Shown piece after piece: positions 45,860-54,892 of a stretch of DNA of 64,000 nucleotides (positions are counted from its first letter, which is position 1; each line of letters opens with the position of its first letter). The stretch spans positions 1,550,001 through 1,614,000 of the forward strand of contig NZ_OX365700.1 of NCBI RefSeq assembly GCF_947241125.1. The letters run 5' to 3'. Under the pieces are notes generated by a model. It was not told the origin of the DNA. It saw only the letters and a list, made by a program, of their open reading frames with translations, and searched no databases. This stretch comes from Nitrospira tepida. GTDB lineage: Bacteria; Nitrospirota; Nitrospiria; Nitrospirales; Nitrospiraceae. The position numbers were made by a program, and so were the translations under genes.

Positions 45860-48259
45860 TTAGTTCAATTTTAGCCCATGGATCGAATCATAGGGCACAT
45901 CCACAACAATAGGATCTGCGCCAGATGAGCTTAACACCTTATCGGCTCGTCGAAGTTGCCAGAATTGGCCAGAGGAGATTGGAACAAGGAGTTCACCGGA
46001 ACGCAATGGGTCCTGGTCGAGTGCATTTTCGTACTCCGTCACAAGTACCTTTGGCAGCACTTCTGTGCCATCGAACATCTTGTCGAATGCTTCCGCCAAC
46101 TCATCGCTCGATTGGAAAGCGCGAAGGTTTGCCAGGCATGCTACGGCAAACTCCTCCTGGCAGTCTGATACTTCCTTAGCCCATTTTTCGTGAATAGCGC
46201 CAGCATATATTCTGTCGAGCCAGGGACCAATCTGCGACTCATTAATAATTGTATTGGCGTTTTCTTCCAGTATCCGAAGCGAACCGGCAACATACTCTTT
46301 CTCATAGACACCTTGACCCCCCAGAGGCTCTGTTACGACATGAACGTCACACGAAGTATGACGACGACCTCTGTTTACTCGCCCAAAACGCTGAATCAGT
46401 GATTCAAGAGGCGCCGGCTCTGTGAAGATTGTGTCAAAGTCAATATCCAGACTGACCTCAACAACCTGAGTAGCGACAAGGACTGCCGGGGTCGCTGTTT
46501 GCTGTCGATTGCGGGTTCCCATCTTCATAAGAAGATTTTGTTCTTTGCCAAATCGATCTCGGGCGTTAAAGCGGCCATGGATAAGCTCAGACACAATAGC
46601 GATCGATGAGAGTGGTTCACTAAGAGCGCGATGAACATTGATTGCAGTAGCAACTGTATTGCAGACAACCAGTACTGATTCACCTCCGGACGCACGCTGT
46701 GCGATTTGTTCTAGAACGGCGGGTTCTGTGATCCTGCCCTTCACAATTCTTATGGTATGACGGGCGAATTGTTTAAAGAGGGCATCTCCTGCACTGACAT
46801 GCACGACCTCTCCAAGAACTCGGTGAAGAACTCCGGCGAGTATCGACGGAAAGGTTGCCGACATAATCAAGAATCGGCCTCCAAGATTTCTTCGAAGATG
46901 TTCAATCATGCCTAAGATCATGCCCAGCCGCTTTGGTTCATAAGCATGGATCTCATCAAAGATGAAAAGACCATCAACCGCGTCTGTGAGCAGTGCTTCG
47001 TAGCCTTTCAATCGAAAGGCTCCACGGAGAAGTTGATAGGGAGTCAGAACCCGTATCGGATGATGACAGAGACGAGCAAGAGCCTGTTCGCGGTGCGCGA
47101 CGATCTCTGCCTTCTCTGGGACATACCCTTTCTCCAAAAGGTTTCGATAAAGAGCCTGAAGTGCGCGGGAGTGCTGGAGTGAAACGCTTTCAGGAAAATG
47201 GCGAGAGAGCCGAGCGTGCATGGCATTGAGACTAGCTTGATAGGGGAGGAGATAATAGATGCGTCCACGGCAATCACCGTTCGCCTTTTGATTGACGCTC
47301 CAGAGAATCGCGGCTTCCGTTTTCCCACTCCCCGTTGGAGCAACGAGCAGAGCATGCCCAGAGCGCGATGCTGCCTCCCGTTGGTGTGGAAAGAGTGCAT
47401 CTGTGCGGCCCAGGCCCAAGATCTTCACCATTTCCTCTATATTCTTAAACGGGAGATCTGCAGGGCGTACATGAGCAGAAGCAGTGTGGTCTGCGAGAAG
47501 AACGAGTCCGCGAAGGACAAGGGCGGTGAGGTTTTCGGATGACGAGGAAGGTTGCTCTCCAAGTTTCCGGACAAGCCGTCGGTAAGCCTTTAATGCATTG
47601 TGAATTCTCGAGACTGCAAGTTCACGAAAATTGGCTGCGGGGTGTGCTGGCAGGTCAGGAAAGACTTCAAGCTCTGGCAGTTTGTTCTTCCTTGCTAATT
47701 TAGAAGAATCTATTGCTATCCAGTTCGCAACAGCTTCCACTATGGGGTCACTCACCTCTGCCAACAGAGAGGAGACAGGGTCGTCTTCGGAATCATCAAG
47801 TTCAGAGTAAAGTCGAGTGATGTCACTGATGTCCCGATGATGCGAGGCAATACCGGCTGCAACCCATGGATGGTCGCCTTCATTGCCATCAGGCAGAGCC
47901 CATTCAATAAATGCTAGCGAGAGGATTTCATGGCGTTGCCCCCATGATTCTCCACCCGGGCGGAGTTGAGCTTGGAACCCTTTCGCGATTTTCCCCATAT
48001 CATGCAGAACGCATGCCCAGAACGCTCGATGCCACAGGCGAGGCTCGCCCACTCGCTCGGCAAGGTTAGGAAATAGTTCGTGAAGATCGCCTAAGCGAGC
48101 TACGACCGCAGCGGTATGGCCTATAAGGGTTTCTCCTCGAGTCGAACCAGGCCGTGGACTTTTAGCCCAAATTTCCGCCAGGGTTGTCTTGTGGTCAGTG
48201 TCCACTGTTTTATGAACTACCTGTGAAACTGTGAAACCACACAATTCTATGGGTTCCAT
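45860..48259 (-). CDS. cas3: CRISPR type I nuclease-helicase Cas3 (HD domain fused)
   Basis: From the ATG at 48259 (ACCTCC complement, a good ribosome site) it has 799 residues. HD nuclease: IGHTAAVVARL, VLHDMGKIAKGFQ near 85 and ASHHRDI. Superfamily 2 helicase: Walker A APTGSGKTEAA near 308, DEIH in IFDEIHAY near 435, SAT in IMSATFPS and motif VI LIQRFGRVNR near 625. It degrades DNA recruited by Cascade. The start lies 50 nt inside cas5, so it is co-translated. All catalytic motifs are present. Confidence 0.95.
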   Translation of the reverse strand: MEPIELCGFTVSQVVHKTVDTDHKTTLAEIWAKSPRPGSTRGETLIGHTAAVVARLGDLHELFPNLAERVGEPRLWHRAFWACVLHDMGKIAKGFQAQLRPGGESWGQRHEILSLAFIEWALPDGNEGDHPWVAAGIASHHRDISDITRLYSELDDSEDDPVSSLLAEVSDPIVEAVANWIAIDSSKLARKNKLPELEVFPDLPAHPAANFRELAVSRIHNALKAYRRLVRKLGEQPSSSSENLTALVLRGLVLLADHTASAHVRPADLPFKNIEEMVKILGLGRTDALFPHQREAASRSGHALLVAPTGSGKTEAAILWSVNQKANGDCRGRIYYLLPYQASLNAMHARLSRHFPESVSLQHSRALQALYRNLLEKGYVPEKAEIVAHREQALARLCHHPIRVLTPYQLLRGAFRLKGYEALLTDAVDGLFIFDEIHAYEPKRLGMILGMIEHLRRNLGGRFLIMSATFPSILAGVLHRVLGEVVHVSAGDALFKQFARHTIRIVKGRITEPAVLEQIAQRASGGESVLVVCNTVATAINVHRALSEPLSSIAIVSELIHGRFNARDRFGKEQNLLMKMGTRNRQQTATPAVLVATQVVEVSLDIDFDTIFTEPAPLESLIQRFGRVNRGRRHTSCDVHVVTEPLGGQGVYEKEYVAGSLRILEENANTIINESQIGPWLDRIYAGAIHEKWAKEVSDCQEEFAVACLANLRAFQSSDELAEAFDKMFDGTEVLPKVLVTEYENALDQDPLRSGELLVPISSGQFWQLRRADKVLSSSGADPIVVDVPYDSIHGLKLN

Positions 48260-48968
48260 GTTTTGGAGGTGATTGGGGGTCAATCCAAAGCTCCAAAGGC
48301 TCGTTTTTGATGTGCAACACCTGTCGGGAGCCAAACAGGTTGCCTTCTTCGACTGACGAGTAGTAAACAATATCCCGGAGAAGGATGAAGCGATCGAAAA
48401 CTGGTTCTCTCTGTGGTGGGGGACCGATATAGCGCGGCATCAAGACGGTGGTGCCGCGTGCGGTTCGCCTGCGGAAATGAGAAGGCAGAATCGTTGCCTC
48501 GAAGTATCCACGGTCTGACCGTTCAAGTGTGGCTTCTTCAACTTTGCTATAGCAGGCCAGGTCCTGCGAGCGTCCCAAGACGACCGGAAAGCGGGGTTGT
48601 AAGAATGCATCAGCGAGGTCTATTCGGTTCAGATAGAGAACAAGCCTGGCTCCCAAAAGAAACTCCCGACGAGTAGGCTGCACGGTAGCATTAAGAACAG
48701 TTGAGTGTGTTTCTCTCCCAACTTGAAACCGTCCTCCAGCAGGAACCACAATCTGCTGATTTTCCAAATCCTCCCCTTTGCCAAGGGCCGTAAACCAATA
48801 AGCAAACTGGAGACTTGTTGAGTCCGGCCATTCTCCCAAGGCGCTGGCAATATGGCCAAATATTGTAGAGGGAGGAGGCATGTCAAAGCTTAACTGGCGT
48901 CCAACCAAGAAGTGGGGGTAACGAAAGGAGCAGGTTGGCGCTTCTATCTCAATGCGAAGGACTCGCAT
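48210..48968 (-). CDS. cas5: Cascade subunit Cas5 (type I-B, Cst5t-like)
   Basis: A RAMP protein of 252 residues: MRVLRIEIEAPTCSFRYPHF, then PPPSTIFGHIASALGEW (typical Cas5 P-P-S-T-hydrophobic-G-h-h segment) and a G-rich C-terminus. In type I-B it holds the crRNA 5' handle. One base separates it from cas7, and it overlaps cas3. Confidence 0.9.
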   Translation of the reverse strand: MRVLRIEIEAPTCSFRYPHFLVGRQLSFDMPPPSTIFGHIASALGEWPDSTSLQFAYWFTALGKGEDLENQQIVVPAGGRFQVGRETHSTVLNATVQPTRREFLLGARLVLYLNRIDLADAFLQPRFPVVLGRSQDLACYSKVEEATLERSDRGYFEATILPSHFRRRTARGTTVLMPRYIGPPPQREPVFDRFILLRDIVYYSSVEEGNLFGSRQVLHIKNEPLELWIDPQSPPKHGTHRIVWFHSFTGSS

Positions 48969-48969
48969 G

Positions 48970-50067
48970 TCAGTCGTACCATTTCTTGTTATTGCTTTGT
49001 TTGAGTTCTTCTGCCAGAGCGATCATTGCCTCCCGCGGGTGCCCCCACCGGAATTTAATGCTAGATCGCTCAGCATCGCTCAGCAATTCGACGGCCTGCC
49101 GATGATCATCCAAGTAACCCTTAGCCCATCCCACAAATACATCAGAAAGAAGTTGGTCCTTGTAGACCTTCAAAATTTCTTTTAGCGCATCGAGACTGAT
49201 CGCAGGTTGACCATTACTATTGGCGCAGACGATTCGGTAAAAGGGATGGTTGCCAGATCGCGTGACGGCAGCAAAAATCAGACTCGGTGTTACGTCAGTA
49301 TAGTGGAGCGTCAACTTAGCGCCACCTTCCATCTCGCCGATCGCACGTATCAGGGATGCGACACGTTTAGCTCGGTCTTGGTGGGATAAACGGAAAGCAG
49401 GTTGTCCATAAACTGTTGCCTCTTGAAGGTGCCGTTCCCTAGCAATTTGAATGCGGTTTTCATCAAGATTCCGATAACCAACTCGCCCTCCGTTGAAAAA
49501 TGTGCCGGCAGTGGTCAGGTTGAGCGAAAAGAGTCCTTGGAGGGTCGCTCTATAGAATTGGTGCTGATAGAGAACGGGGTCTCCATCATGCCGAGCCATT
49601 GTTCCCCAATCTTCGACAAGCTTTACTGGCCCAAGAGAGACCAGAGTACCAACCCTAAATGGAGAGATTCGCGTTATACTGACTTCCTTCCCTTTCTTTT
49701 CTTCCAGCGGCGTTAGCTTTTGATAATTTGGATCTTTCTGGCGACGATCTTTAGACTTGGAATCTGGTGCGCGCATGTATCCAAACAAATCGTCATCCCA
49801 ATACTCGATCGGGTTGCTGGCTGGATAGGCAAGGTTTTCGTTTTCCTTGTACGTTGGTGCCATTGCCCAGGCAGCATCGTTTTTCGAAAGAGTTTCTCTC
49901 AGCCAATATCGAACCGCCTGTGCCGACACATATGGAATTGGCCCAGTTGGCGTGCGTATAAATTTCACAGCCATTGCATTTTCAACCCGTGCTGTCTCGT
50001 CCTTCCCAGCATTGTTCAGCGCCGATGCTGGAGCATCGATTAACATCATTCCAGTGACAAAAGCCAT
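48970..50067 (-). CDS. cas7: Cascade backbone Cas7 (Cst2/DevR family)
   Basis: A 365-residue protein beginning MAFVTGMMLIDAPASALNNAG, followed by VKFIRTPTGPIPYVSAQAV and RYWLRETL, the Cst2/DevR Cas7 signature. Six or so copies line the crRNA in type I-B complexes and the subunit also cleaves target RNA in some type III relatives. AAGGAGGAG lies ahead of the ATG. Gene order cas8-cas7-cas5-cas3 fits the Tneap (Cst) branch of I-B. Confidence 0.92.
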   Translation of the reverse strand: MAFVTGMMLIDAPASALNNAGKDETARVENAMAVKFIRTPTGPIPYVSAQAVRYWLRETLSKNDAAWAMAPTYKENENLAYPASNPIEYWDDDLFGYMRAPDSKSKDRRQKDPNYQKLTPLEEKKGKEVSITRISPFRVGTLVSLGPVKLVEDWGTMARHDGDPVLYQHQFYRATLQGLFSLNLTTAGTFFNGGRVGYRNLDENRIQIARERHLQEATVYGQPAFRLSHQDRAKRVASLIRAIGEMEGGAKLTLHYTDVTPSLIFAAVTRSGNHPFYRIVCANSNGQPAISLDALKEILKVYKDQLLSDVFVGWAKGYLDDHRQAVELLSDAERSSIKFRWGHPREAMIALAEELKQSNNKKWYD

Positions 50068-50117: not shown

Positions 50118-50492
50118 TTATGATGCTGCCAGATTTGCAGCTTCATCTTCGGTTTCTAGTTCCTGAAGCGCATCGGGTTGTTTGCCAAACCAGCCCTGCC
50201 GATGCAATTCTTCAATGACCCGAATCAACACCAGGTCTCTGGCCAGCGTCCAGTCTGTTCTGGCCAATTCCTCTCCTTCTTCAAAGACGAGCAGGAACTC
50301 ATCCAGCCCCAGTAAAGGAGGTTGTCCCTTCTTGAGACGGACGTTGGAGGCTTTGATGAGCAGATTCCTCAAGATCACATACCGATTGGCCCGATAAAGT
50401 CCCTGAAAAAGGCGTCGGTCGTTGTCCAATGCGATGTGTTGAGCGACCCGATCGCCAAGTGAACGGATCGCCTCAATCCGGCTCTTTTCCAT
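50118..50492 (-). CDS. cas11: internal Cas11 small subunit within cas8
   Basis: An in-frame ATG at 50492 is preceded by AAGGAGGTGATT (50507-50496), a near-perfect complement of the 16S anti-Shine-Dalgarno, with 8 nt between GGAGG and the ATG. The 124-residue product (MEKSRIEAIRSLGDRVAQHI at the start) is predicted all-helical and has the size reported for Cas11 made by internal initiation in type I-B, I-C and I-D systems. No separate cas11 gene is present in the operon. Confidence 0.7.
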   Translation of the reverse strand: MEKSRIEAIRSLGDRVAQHIALDNDRRLFQGLYRANRYVILRNLLIKASNVRLKKGQPPLLGLDEFLLVFEEGEELARTDWTLARDLVLIRVIEELHRQGWFGKQPDALQELETEDEAANLAAS

Positions 50493-51629
50493 TCCAATCA
50501 CCTCCTTCAGAAATAGGCGTGTTATGTCCCAGGAGACGAGATCGAATTGCCGGGTTAAGTGATAGTCCCGGCGCGGGTCGCTCTCGCGTGCGAACCGATG
50601 GGCTTGACGAAGAAAATAGGTGCGGACAAAGCGGGCTGCATTGGCTGGTAGATCAAATAGGTCATCATAGAGATAGTTACGATTCATTTCAGGGTTCCAG
50701 GGTTTCTCTCCGTGCGTGTTTGTAGCTTGTTTGTGTTTCTTTCTCCCCTTGCTTTTCTTCTGCTTGTCATCCTCTGAAGTTCTCTCTCTCGCCGAAGACT
50801 GTATCTTTTGCCAAACCTGACTCGTACCAGCTCGAGATACTGCGCGGATGAATTTGACGACCTCAGAAGGAAGTTGGAAAAGATCAATATCAGGGCCTTG
50901 ACCGGAATTGGTCAGGTGATACACCGTGACTGATGGTGCCGGTTCGTCCTCACTCCATTCTCGGCGCTCGTGTTCAATTTCTAATAGAACATGGACAATT
51001 AAGGTTTTCGGGGCCTTTGCATCGAGATATTTTTCTTTAGACTTGTCAGTTAAAAGGAGGAGCTTTCGATTATCGTTGAGGAACCGGTGAGCGAAGGCAT
51101 AGGTAAGCTTCGGATCATCGGGACAATGAACTGCCAAGGCCCGCCCGTAACAACGACGAGCGCCCATAGGGAAAGCTTGGATTGCCAGAAGATAGGCACC
51201 TGAAATAGGCAGGCCGCCGGTGCCTGCAGGGAAAAAGTTGAGAACGTCCTCCCCCGTGATCATCGGCACGTGTTGTCTGTAGACGATCCGGCTAGCTGGT
51301 TCACCAGAGAATATACAGCGAAGGCCTGATGCGTGAGGATCAGGTGGTTCCTGAAATGCATAGAGGACTTGTCGTTTAAATTGCGCGATATTTTCGGATT
51401 TCATTTTTATTTTTGCACCGGGCTGCGCACCTGGTTGAACATAAGCAGCGTTCGGAAAGACACAGGTGAGATATGAGAGCAGTTTCCCCGAGAAGTATTC
51501 CTTCTCCAGAAAGTTTGCCACCTTAAGCAGATCTTTCTTGGTTAAAGTCGAAGGATCAGGTTTCTCGCAGAACGCCGATAACGTTGCCACGCCGACATCG
51601 GCAATTGGATGACCTGTATATCGCAGCAT
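50118..51629 (-). CDS. cas8: Cascade large subunit Cas8 (Cst1 type)
   Basis: I place the start at the ATG at 51629 (MLRYTGHPIADVGVATLSAF), giving 503 residues that match the Cst1/Cas8b family. A cysteine-containing LRCIFSGEPASRIVYRQ segment near 120, a charged low-complexity linker near 300-325 and a helical C-terminus follow. It recognises PAM. The frame stays open upstream to 51710 with residues copied from the end of Cas6 (VGKYAVWGNGRYE), so a longer hybrid product is possible but probably not the real N-terminus. The last 124 codons probably also encode Cas11. Confidence 0.85.
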   Translation of the reverse strand: MLRYTGHPIADVGVATLSAFCEKPDPSTLTKKDLLKVANFLEKEYFSGKLLSYLTCVFPNAAYVQPGAQPGAKIKMKSENIAQFKRQVLYAFQEPPDPHASGLRCIFSGEPASRIVYRQHVPMITGEDVLNFFPAGTGGLPISGAYLLAIQAFPMGARRCYGRALAVHCPDDPKLTYAFAHRFLNDNRKLLLLTDKSKEKYLDAKAPKTLIVHVLLEIEHERREWSEDEPAPSVTVYHLTNSGQGPDIDLFQLPSEVVKFIRAVSRAGTSQVWQKIQSSARERTSEDDKQKKSKGRKKHKQATNTHGEKPWNPEMNRNYLYDDLFDLPANAARFVRTYFLRQAHRFARESDPRRDYHLTRQFDLVSWDITRLFLKEVIGMEKSRIEAIRSLGDRVAQHIALDNDRRLFQGLYRANRYVILRNLLIKASNVRLKKGQPPLLGLDEFLLVFEEGEELARTDWTLARDLVLIRVIEELHRQGWFGKQPDALQELETEDEAANLAAS

Positions 51630-51669: not shown

Positions 51670-51722
51670 AACTCATACCGCCCATTTCCCCATACTGCAT
51701 ACTTCCCCACGTGAGTGTACTG
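51670..51722 (-). pseudogene. cas6 3'-end fragment, copy 2
   Basis: About 44 of 53 positions match the end of the intact cas6 (53821-53873). On the minus strand it encodes QYTHVGKYAVWGNGRYE in frame with cas8. It is joined on the other side to a heptamer array. Confidence 0.8.
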
Positions 51723-52085
51723 CGTATCCGTTTACCGTGAACCGTCGTCCGCAGTCCGCGAACCGCAATTCGCGAGCCACCGCCTGCGAACTGTTATCGG
51801 TCGATGGAGAACCGTCCGCCCTTGTCGTGCACAGGACCTTGTATCCGCACGATGTATGGAGCGTGGTGTGCACTGGTGGCCCATCAGGTATCACGCCCAT
51901 GTGACATCCGAGGTCACAACGCTGAAGACTGTGACCCGCCATCCGCACACCGCTTCCCGCTCTCGGCGTTCCGCTGACCGGTTAGCGTAAACCGCGGCCC
52001 GGAATCCGTGACCTGTCATTGGTCGACGGATAACGGAAGACGGGCAACGGAAAACGGGATACCGGAGTCCCGTTTGACCGTTTAC
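51723..52085. repeat. CCG-type heptamer array J
   Basis: Units such as ccgttta, ccgtgaa, ccgtcgt, ccgcagt, ccgcgaa lie at about 51728-51800. A more degenerate centre follows (51800-51990, with a GTGAC/GTCAC inverted repeat near 51900). Reverse-oriented units (acggata, acggaag, acgggca, acggaaa) lie at about 52016-52045. No gene is supported in this 400-bp stretch. Confidence 0.75.
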
Positions 52086-52125: not shown

Positions 52126-52377
52126 ATGAGCGAAAAAGAATCGCTTCATCCCCCTCGATTTGTCCGGAACGAACAGGGTGAGATTATCGACGTCATTGTG
52201 TCCTATGACGATTATCGGCAATTCCTTCGGACCCTTGCCGCTCATGCTGATTGGGAAACACTGCCTCCCTATCTTCAGGATGCCATTGATCACCTGCTTG
52301 CTGAAGAAGCCAAGGCTGAACCTGGATCATCACAGCCCATCCGTGCAGTTCTGGGCAAACCTGGCAAGACTGCCTGA
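52126..52377 (+). CDS. antitoxin of a RelE-type module
   Basis: An 83-residue acidic protein. FVRNEQGEIIDVIVSYDDYRQFL in the first half is typical of Phd/RelB-like antitoxins (beta-strands followed by helix), then a helical tail ending in KPGKTA. The stop overlaps the toxin start (TGATG). The only plus-strand genes in the island. Confidence 0.75.
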   Translation: MSEKESLHPPRFVRNEQGEIIDVIVSYDDYRQFLRTLAAHADWETLPPYLQDAIDHLLAEEAKAEPGSSQPIRAVLGKPGKTA

Positions 52378-52634
52378 TGGTCTACCAGGTTCTGCTCCGA
52401 CCTGCCGCGGAACGCGACCTCGCTAAGCTTCCTCCCGATATTCGCACCAGGTTGGCCGATGTTCTGTTTGCCCTCGAAAACGATCCTCGCCCTCATGGCG
52501 TGACCAAGCTGGCGGGAGGCCACGATGTGTGGCGCGTCCGCGTCGGCGACTATCGCGTTCTTTTCGAAATCGACGATTCTGCCCAAACCATTCTCATCCT
52601 TCGTATCGCCCACCGCCGGGATGCTTACCGCTGA
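52377..52634 (+). CDS. RelE/ParE-family toxin
   Basis: An 85-residue protein: YQVLLRPAAERDLAKLPPDI, LAGGHDVWRVRVGDYRVLFE and ILRIAHRRDAYR are the usual RelE signatures (Arg-Val-Gly-Asp-Tyr-Arg core). RelE cleaves mRNA in the ribosome. Intact. Its 3' end abuts a cas6 fragment and heptamers. Confidence 0.88.
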   Translation: MVYQVLLRPAAERDLAKLPPDIRTRLADVLFALENDPRPHGVTKLAGGHDVWRVRVGDYRVLFEIDDSAQTILILRIAHRRDAYR

Positions 52635-52645
52635 TGCCATTCCAT

Positions 52646-52683
52646 AACCTCATACTGTCCGTTTCCCCACACCGCGTACTTCC
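52646..52683 (-). pseudogene. cas6 3'-end fragment, copy 3
   Basis: On the minus strand it encodes RKYAVWGNGQYEV, matching the last residues of Cas6, and runs directly into a heptamer array. It lies 12 bp after the relE stop. Confidence 0.75.
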
Positions 52684-52689
52684 TATTGT

Positions 52690-52885
52690 CCGTGAACCGT
52701 TCACCGCTGCCCGCAATCCGCGAGCCGCTCACCGTGAGCCGTGTTCCGTGATCCGTTTACCGCTATCCGCATCCCGCTGACCGTCTACCGCTGCCCGCAA
52801 ACCGCTTTCAACAGCCCGTGATCGGTCGACGGGCAACGGAAGACGGGCGACGGAGAACCGGAGTCCGTTCGCCGTGAGCCGTCGA
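52690..52885. repeat. CCG-type heptamer array K
   Basis: Units ccgtgaa, ccgttca, ccgctgc, ccgcaat, ccgcgag and similar run from about 52691 to 52807. Reverse-oriented units (acgggca, acggaag, acgggcg, acggaga) at about 52830-52857 follow a central atcggtcgacgg that is shared almost exactly with array J (near 52010). Confidence 0.75.
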
Positions 52886-52889
52886 ACCT

Positions 52890-53564
52890 TCATCGCTCCT
52901 TCTCCAAGGATCGGGCAATCAGTTCTCTCGCCAGGGATTTATAGAAGGACGCTATTGCCACTGGATCATAGGGCTTGAGCATCGGCAGCTCGCCTTGCGA
53001 CGGAAGGTCTTCCAGAAATCTGCCTTTGAGGATATGGTCGATGCCTGTGACGCCGAATTTCCGCTGAGTCTGCTGGATTGCGTCCCACAGGCTGATTGTC
53101 GGAAACTCGCGAAGCAGAAAATAGACGTCGAGATAATCCTTGAAATCCTTTCGATCCGTGAGCGCCATGAGTTTGTTGGCCAGGATGTCTCGCCAACCGT
53201 CAACCTGGACGCCTTCGACGGCCAGGCGCGGCTCAAGCGGGGGAAACGGATATTTCGTGAACTCCACTTTCATGGTCCGCTGATTGTAATCATGAAGCAG
53301 GAACAACCGGCGATCGTATTTCCGCTCATGCTGAATATTGGCGACGTGTGGAATCGCTCGAAGGAAACCGAGGACGGACTCCAGATCGACTTCCTGCTCG
53401 GTAAAGAAGTCGAGATCTTCGGAGTGCCGATGCCGAAGATAGAACGCCGACAGGGCCGTTCCACCGGTCAGGTAAAAGTGCTCGCGGAGCGGGGAGTTCC
53501 GGAAGCGTACAAGGAGGGTTTTTTGTTCCTCCGTCAGAATTGAATTGTCGGTAATCGAGTTCAG
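52890..53564 (-). CDS. abiEii: AbiEii-type nucleotidyltransferase toxin
   Basis: The frame carries the PF08843 core HFYLTGGTALSAFYL, HRHSEDLDFF (nucleotidyltransferase GG and D-x-D motifs), then VANIQHERKYDRRLF and DILANKLMALTDRKDFKDYL. No ATG, GTG or TTG lies before the core; a CTG at 53564 that overlaps the upstream stop (CTGA), with GGGAG 7 nt ahead, is the best start and gives 224 residues. AbiEii-type proteins transfer NMP to a cellular acceptor and act as abortive-infection toxins. Confidence 0.8.
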   Translation of the reverse strand: MNSITDNSILTEEQKTLLVRFRNSPLREHFYLTGGTALSAFYLRHRHSEDLDFFTEQEVDLESVLGFLRAIPHVANIQHERKYDRRLFLLHDYNQRTMKVEFTKYPFPPLEPRLAVEGVQVDGWRDILANKLMALTDRKDFKDYLDVYFLLREFPTISLWDAIQQTQRKFGVTGIDHILKGRFLEDLPSQGELPMLKPYDPVAIASFYKSLARELIARSLEKER

Positions 53565-53807: not shown

Positions 53808-54854
53808 TTATATAACTCTCACTTCATATTGCCCATTTCCCCAAACCGCATACTTTCCCACATGGGTGTACTGGCCAAGGATCAGCAACGGCAGGAACTC
53901 TTCGAAGTCGCCCTCATACGTCACTTCGCCCACGAAGCCGCCCATGTCGTGGGCCTGACCGGTCTTCCAGGACCGGCGGTCGCGGTCTTCCCATCTGATC
54001 TTGCAACTCACGGTTCGGATGGCTTCCGCCCGTTCGCCGAAGGCTTTGAAGTCTACGTCGAGCGTGTCGTCGCAGTAGAAATGGCCGAGCGCGTTGATGC
54101 GGTCGCGCAGGCGCTTGATCAGGTGCTGGAACTCGGGGCGCTCAACAATCCTGCCGTCGGCTTTGAGGAGCGTCGGGGTGAGGAAGCGCACCGCTATCCG
54201 TTTTCGGTTATCCGTCGTCCGCGATCCGCGGTCCGTTGGCTGTAAGCTGTTCCCCGTGAACCGTTCAGAAGCGAGACGGCGGCAGTCATCGAAGGTTAAG
54301 CGGAATGAAGAGGGTCGAACCAATTGTGTTGCGGAAGAGTAAACCTCTTCTCCCTCAGGAGCTTGCTCACGGGTAACGGAAAACGGATGACAGGCAACGG
54401 CCTCGCGTAGCGCGAGCGCGCGAGCTAAAGCGTAGCGCCCTCGGCCGAGCCCGATGCCTTGGTCGCCCAACTCCCGGAACGTGACCGCAAAATAGGGAAA
54501 GTAGTCGAGCGCTCTGCCGATGAGGATCAGGTCGAAGGACAGGGCCTCGCCCGGTCCAGCCACCGTCTCAAGCCCGTTCGGCGGCCGGAACACGAAGGGC
54601 CGCGGAATGTCCTGATTCAGGCTCAGCCGGTCGCTGCCGGGCGGAGGGCTCGGCTCAAAGATCTGCCCGTACGGGCAAGTGGCTTTCATCGCGCAGGTCT
54701 GGCGGCAGTCGGCCGGCGTCGGACAGACCAGCCGTTTGAACGTGGCGCCGAAGGCGCCGCGGAGGGTGTTGCCGGGATTGCGCGGATGAAGGGCCAGGCG
54801 ATCTACCGCCTCTAACTCGAACCTGAAGTGGGCGAGGGAGAATGAGTTCAGCAT
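53808..54854 (-). CDS. cas6: CRISPR RNA endoribonuclease Cas6
   Basis: About 348 residues from the ATG at 54854 (MLNSFSLAHFRFELEAVDRL). Features of the Cas6 (PF10040) family: cysteine cluster CPTPADCRQTCAMKATCPYG near 45-60, a first glycine loop GIGLGRGRY near 137 and a C-terminal glycine-rich loop GQYTHVGKYAVWGNGQYEV. It cuts the pre-crRNA upstream of the ACTGAAAG handle and is the only Cas6 here, so it probably serves both I-B and III-B. Two stretches (residues about 150-163 and 203-222) consist of heptamer-derived codons. The earlier ATG at 54866 is also possible. Confidence 0.88.
   Translation of the reverse strand: MLNSFSLAHFRFELEAVDRLALHPRNPGNTLRGAFGATFKRLVCPTPADCRQTCAMKATCPYGQIFEPSPPPGSDRLSLNQDIPRPFVFRPPNGLETVAGPGEALSFDLILIGRALDYFPYFAVTFRELGDQGIGLGRGRYALARALALREAVACHPFSVTREQAPEGEEVYSSATQLVRPSSFRLTFDDCRRLASERFTGNSLQPTDRGSRTTDNRKRIAVRFLTPTLLKADGRIVERPEFQHLIKRLRDRINALGHFYCDDTLDVDFKAFGERAEAIRTVSCKIRWEDRDRRSWKTGQAHDMGGFVGEVTYEGDFEEFLPLLILGQYTHVGKYAVWGNGQYEVRVI
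54185..54425. repeat. two heptamer clusters inside the cas6 reading frame
   Basis: At 54188-54245 plus-strand units such as atccgtt, ttccgcg, gtccgcg, gtccgtt encode QPTDRGSRTTDNRKRIAV on the minus strand. At 54371-54403 units gggtaac, ggaaaac, ggatgac, aggcaac encode CHPFSVTRE. Both keep the frame open. Confidence 0.6.
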
Positions 54855-54892
54855 GGTACACAGCATTCAGAACAGACCCAGCGAATCATCTT

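Follow-up and report, generated by a model that had tools for sequence, protein, structure and literature searches.

The 64,000-nt stretch of the Nitrospira tepida genome analysed here (assembly GCF_947241125.1, contig NZ_OX365700.1, positions 1,550,001 to 1,614,000 of the forward strand; hereafter the window) carries a cas8 gene of a type I-B CRISPR-Cas system. Inside this gene, a strong Shine–Dalgarno (SD) sequence precedes an in-frame ATG, from which the small Cascade subunit Cas11b is predicted to be translated as a separate protein. The features concerned are the following.

50118-51629, minus strand: cas8 (type I-B, Cst1/TIGR01908 branch), 503 aa when counted from the ATG at 51629, the likeliest start.
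50497-50507, minus strand: internal SD sequence AAGGAGGTGAT, encoding Lys-Glu-Val-(Ile) of Cas8; the SD stretch in cas8 is also written AAGGAGGTG (minus strand).
50490-50492, minus strand: internal start ATG, Met380 of Cas8 when counted from the ATG at 51629.
50118-50492, minus strand: predicted cas11b, the 124-aa C-terminal part of Cas8, an all-helical bundle in the predicted structure.

On the minus strand, the context of the internal site reads ctgAAGGAGGTGATTGGaATG / ctgAAGGAGGTGATTGGaATGGAAAAGAGC. The GGAGG core is separated from the ATG by 8 bases, and the frame that follows is in register with cas8 and ends with TAA at 50118; the SD, the in-frame ATG at 50492 and the 124-residue frame described in the initial annotation were all read directly from the sequence. 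All 11 bases of AAGGAGGTGAT match the canonical anti-SD perfectly, the canonical sequence being used because no 16S rRNA gene was found in the genome assembly. The pairing energy of the internal site was -19.9 kcal/mol, compared with -6.2 for the likely cas8 start and -11.6 for that of cas7, and the internal SD was the strongest among all in-frame ATG, GTG and TTG codons of cas8. In the window, the 11-mer has a single exact match, and four matches with at most one mismatch were found vs. 1.1 expected; the exact 11-mer is present seven times in the 4.73-Mb genome, where only the cas8 copy has an ATG 2-9 nt downstream; as about 0.8 such cases would be expected among the seven, this genome-wide rarity is not significant alone.

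The family of the gene was assigned by profile searches. Cas8 matched TIGR01908 over residues 131-311 only, at 52.9 bits vs. a curated cut-off of 19.4, and a match above the cut-off confirms the earlier assignment to Cst1, while the PADLOC Cas8b profile PDLC01387 covered residues 28-521 of the longer cas8 open reading frame (ORF) (E=3.7e-147). No match to TIGR02556, the TM1802 Cas8b family that Thermotoga maritima does match, was found in the N. tepida genome. The longer ORF extends to a GTG at 51710, but this extension is judged spurious, as it runs into a decayed copy of the 3′ tail of cas6 that lies just upstream of cas8.

To place the internal site among relatives, a four-sequence alignment was scanned against one genome per species (84,980 species), and 60 loci were recovered, belonging to Nitrospirota, Chloroflexi, Deltaproteobacteria, Firmicutes, Bacteroidota, Poribacteria, Methanosarcina and other archaea; with the window's own gene, 61 Cas8 sequences were aligned, with protein identities down to about 20-25%. 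In the column of Met380, ATG was found in 58 of the 61 sequences, and GTG (L010), TTG (L051) and ATT (L030) once each, and this is the only column of cas8 with a start codon in at least 70% of the sequences. The SD stands in a register of 8 or 9 nt from the start in 54 of the 61. Relatives with as little as about 20-25% protein identity retain both the SD and the start codon in the aligned place, the check among relatives that the initial annotation had proposed. One of the two search patterns demanded a Met at the internal site, but it fits just 7 of the 61 sites; the conservation was not created by the search, because the 54 sites outside it show the same codons (51 ATG, one GTG, one TTG and one ATT). 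The locus with ATT (Ile; L030, at position 2468) is the only relative with this codon at the aligned internal start and has kept its SD; possibly a rare start codon is in use there, or the start has been lost.

Selection on the SD at the nucleotide level was then quantified from the energy with which the 20 nt upstream of the start pair with the anti-SD, in 33 sequences less than 60% identical to one another and in 2000 synonymous redraws of them. The summed energy was -391.9 kcal/mol, compared with -192.8 +/- 18.4 for the redraws (z = -10.8), whose minimum was -260.2. A scan over 431 columns gave a single peak at residues 377-382 (z of -8.7 to -11.0), while columns beyond residues 374-386 had a mean z of 0.0 with a standard deviation of 1.1 and a minimum of -3.6. 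Consistently, arginine at the site is encoded by AGG in 40 of 51 cases (78%), compared with 320 of 2304 (14%) elsewhere in the same genes, and the other SD-type codons are all enriched as well (Glu GAG 28/31, Lys AAG 25/29, Val GTG 30/45).

The peptide at the site, in contrast, varies: LRKV was found 15 times, LRRI 11, LKEV 6, LEEV 5, LRRV 4 and LTEV 4, with others including LWRI. The GGAGG core lies one base earlier in the LRRI type (spacing 9) than in the LKEV type (spacing 8), and the SD class changed at least 12 times on a tree built without the site columns, which was made quickly and in which some branches are weak. With a mean SD energy of -11.8, the internal sites are similar to the best candidate starts of cas8 (-10.8) and cas7 (-11.1) in the same loci. 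These codon statistics indicate that the SD is under selection beyond that on the protein sequence, and that it has been kept despite peptide change and a one-base shift in register.

The predicted product, the C-terminal fragment, is 109-131 aa long in 58 of the 59 other relatives, the exception (L065, 65 aa) lying at a contig end; known small subunits are of similar size (about 110-130 aa). AlphaFold2, run with 60 sequences, modelled the fragment as an all-helical bundle with a mean predicted local distance difference test (pLDDT) score of 88.3 and a predicted template modelling score of 0.82. Foldseek gave no significant match for the fragment, its likeliest row being the type I-A Cascade chain 7tr6_D. 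With a second structural aligner, type I-A Cascade chains came first (9crq_N, Z 9.5, root-mean-square deviation 2.6 over 93 residues; 7tr6_E, Z 6.5), followed by the type I-C chains 8dex_J (Z 4.2) and 7kha_I (residues 494-605, Z 3.8) and by Cmr5 (2.9), while unrelated proteins reached at most 4.0; all these values lie below about 13, a range in which helical bundles can match by chance, and the fold draws its support from one functional class occupying the top rows. Type I-A and I-C Cascade chains are thus the best solved matches in the structure prediction, the further check that the initial annotation had suggested, and the short type I-A chains would, from their size and place, be the small subunit. 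Neither the fragment sequence nor its family profile gave anything significant against the PDB, so the link to solved small subunits goes through the predicted fold only. Pfam held no real family for the fragment. The Synechocystis Cas11b chain is absent from the fragment's fold list, which is not evidence of no likeness.

The boundary of this domain was evaluated in the model of full-length Cas8 (pLDDT 89.2), where a helix at 367-378 is followed by a break, after which the bundle opens with a helix at 382-402. With the second aligner, the type I-A chain 7tr6_C matched residues 1-379 (Z 8.4), followed by the type I-B chains 8ip0_J (Z 6.7) and 8h67_L (Z 6.5, residues 1-279) and then by type I-C chains aligned through residues 479-484, the best matches all being Cascade chains of large-subunit size; by Foldseek, the best were the type I-C Cascade chains 8dex_I, 8dfo_I and 8g9t_K. 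In the model, Met380 is therefore placed at a domain junction, and since the 7tr6_C match stops at 379 and the bundle starts at 382, a type I-A-like large subunit would end where the internal start begins.

Based on the conserved SD and start codon and on the Cascade-like predicted fold, the site is very probably a real internal start for Cas11b, that is, the same cas8 gene would also make the small subunit, as the initial annotation had proposed. Several points weigh against this reading. When codons were redrawn from the usage of cas8 itself with the peptide fixed, an equally strong SD appeared in 4.8% of the redraws (p=0.048, for this gene alone); in the predicted local mRNA fold, the SD is largely paired (mean unpaired probability 0.23), and the region around the site is no more open than the remainder of cas8. 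Among relatives, an Altarchaeum and a Bacteroidales metagenome-assembled genome (L054 and L069) have no SD although the ATG is kept, and in two others (L053 and L038) the SD is weak; SD sequences are little used in Bacteroidota. The low range of the fragment Z values, given above, counts here as well, and in T. maritima a predicted internal start, judged suboptimal, gave no Cas11 in Escherichia coli (PMC13199841). The single-gene case is modest, and the earlier statement that the strength of the SD is far beyond chance was overstated for this gene alone; the site goes far beyond chance once its conservation across relatives is counted.

The conserved motif could instead be driven by the protein, with Leu-Lys-Glu-Val...Met needed where helix 367-378 ends and in the loop to the next helix, and the SD arising as a by-product of the codons. 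Conservation around the site is seen for Leu, Val and Met, with L374 and M380 nearly invariant, and the peptide alone often yields a fairly strong SD in single genes (mean synonymous energy -6.0). However, over the 33 diverged genes the codon choice is skewed to the SD, with the z of -10.8 and the AGG frequencies given above, the peptide varies freely (LKEV, LRRI, LRKV, LEEV, LTEV, LWRI) while the SD persists, and where Met is replaced, the residue is Val (GTG), Leu (TTG) or Ile (ATT); an origin in the protein sequence is accordingly very improbable. Internal SD-like sequences have also been proposed to slow ribosomes, and a translational pause that aids folding would suit a stretch exactly at the junction between the Cas8 domains. 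A pause, however, does not call for a start codon at a constant distance of 8-9 nt, whereas ATG, GTG or TTG is found there in 60 of the 61 sequences, in the sole such column of the gene, and related systems require free Cas11 (PMC13199841, PMC11899642), so that a pause in place of a start deserves equally little credence.

That the small subunit is released from Cas8 by proteolysis, with the internal start unused or minor, has a precedent in that fragmentation was the first interpretation for Cas8b of C. thermocellum and M. maripaludis (reported in PMC11899642). Proteolysis nevertheless leaves the synonymous-codon selection upstream of Met380 unexplained, and the short protein of Haloferax was traced to the internal start M545 (PMC11899642), which makes it extremely improbable and the least probable explanation of all.

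With an internal start for Cas11b, one cas8 mRNA would have two starts. From the 5′ start, full-length Cas8 (about 503 aa) would be made, comprising the large-subunit part (residues 1-379) and the C-terminal helical domain, while ribosomes loading at the SD (50507-50497) would start at the ATG at 50492 and yield the helical domain alone, as free Cas11b of 124 aa. Given the strong internal site and the weak cas8 start site, Cas11 may be made in excess over Cas8. The product would join Cascade; by analogy with the solved type I-B complex, several free copies of Cas11b, together with the C-terminal domain of Cas8, would line its inner belly and hold the non-target strand, with a role in stabilising the R-loop.

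Cst1-type Cas8 might have arisen when a type I-A-like large-subunit gene fused to the cas11 gene downstream of it, the internal SD and start being the retained cas11 start, selected while its peptide drifted; we consider this possible but rather doubtful. If it is true, a short stretch serves at once as coding sequence and as a ribosome-binding site.

Longer Cas8-like proteins of 664 and 670 aa were found in two other genomes of the same order (L006, 1486-3480; L007, 424-2436), and no conserved internal SD with a start was found in them. The C-terminal part of both carries two copies of a motif like YxxERGxxRFxxxVLxRxRRxEIGxxW and possibly consists of two fused small-subunit-like domains.

In the window, cas8 is neighboured by cas7 (Cst2), cas5b, cas3 and cas6, as identified by family profiles including TIGR02585 (E=4e-45) and TIGR01587 (E=2e-72).

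48970-50067, minus strand: cas7 (Cst2/DevR), which comes next in the effector operon and has an SD of its own, AAGGAGG.
48210-48968, minus strand: cas5b, which meets TIGR02593 and is below the cut-off of TIGR01895.
45860-48370, minus strand: cas3 (HD and helicase), ORF as listed, with a provisional start codon.
53808-54866, minus strand: cas6 (Pfam PF10040), upstream of cas8.

No cas11 gene of its own was recognised at the locus, in an examination that covered ORFs around the cas genes only. The locus as a whole (38009-62504) is a mixed one with its cas genes on the minus strand, comprising a CRISPR array in which a 37-bp repeat is present at least 34 times, cas4, cas2, cas1, an IS3-type transposase, the type I-B effector genes, cas6, a TIGR02710 CARF gene and a type III-B Cmr module with Cas10. 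The 3′ tail of cas6, which encodes KYAVWGNGQYEV, is present in three copies (51673-51722, 52650-52699 and 53824-53873), one in cas6 itself and two decayed, the last of them just upstream of cas8. Located between the copies are a ParE-like toxin gene and its small upstream partner ORF (52126-52634), and an AbiEii-like gene (52890-53306), which looks as though the insertion of modules behind cas6 had duplicated its tail. On the flanks of these insertions, at 51730-52060, 52690-52890 and 54200-54450, are stretches of degenerate 7-base units (nnCCGnn, e.g., ACCGTTCACCGCTGCCCGCAATCCGC). In one relative (L002), the ORF adjoining cas8 encodes a WYL regulator and not Cas6.

The mechanism itself is a known one, for which comparative sequence evidence now gives good support in the Cst1 branch. 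Our literature search found no published demonstration of internal Cas11 translation for a Cst1-type Cas8, in agreement with the initial annotation, which knew of no direct one; McBride et al. 2020, reportedly the founding study on internal Cas11 translation, stood outside this comparison, and priority is unsettled to that extent. What is gained for the Cst1 branch is an exact predicted start codon, nucleotide-level evidence of selection and a domain boundary. Tool builders need to know whether Cas11 must be supplied separately, and from these results, expression of such a Cascade from recoded genes should include Cas11 as a gene of its own. The scan of an alignment for an SD in synonymous codons is, further, a general test that could reveal other hidden internal starts.

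Among the type I subtypes, I-B is described as the commonest and the most varied, with more than twelve Cas8b variants that fall into no single group (PMC13199841). Internal translation of Cas11 has precedents in the type I-B systems of Synechocystis and Haloferax and in types I-C and I-D (PMC11899642, PMC11096372). The Synechocystis Cascade contains one Cas8b, seven Cas7 and three Cas11b, and its Cas8b C-terminal domain and Cas11b copies form the belly of the complex, where the non-target strand is supported (PMC11096372). The N-terminal part of the N. tepida model matches chain 8h67_L of the Synechocystis sp. PCC 6714 type I-B complex (Cas8b, formerly Cmx8; 8H67), although that Cas8 belongs to the Myxan/Cmx8 family and not to Cst1, and the profile of the N. 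tepida fragment has no confident PDB chain. In Haloferax volcanii, Cas11b is made from an internal in-frame start in cas8b, as studied with an M545A mutant, and is important for interference (PMC11899642). The likeness to N. tepida is a short protein started in frame inside cas8b, while H. volcanii differs in being archaeal and in having a weak SD (GGATG) and another Cas8b.

In the type I-B1 system of T. maritima, Cas11 is the C-terminal part of Cas8, and Cas8 without Cas11 fails to co-purify (PMC13199841); its Cas8b1, however, is of the TIGR02556/TM1802 family, and TIGR01908 matches the N. tepida protein but not that of T. maritima. Type I-C Cas8c/Cas11c (Desulfovibrio vulgaris and others) shares the small subunit inside cas8, and type I-C chains match the full model, but at a low sequence identity (7-13%). 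To our knowledge, type I-C systems have no Cas6. In type I-A Cascade, the match of 7tr6_C to residues 1-379 of Cas8 and those of 9crq_N and 7tr6_E to the fragment correspond to the two halves of N. tepida Cas8, with the difference that the large and small subunits of type I-A are encoded by separate genes (PMC13199841).
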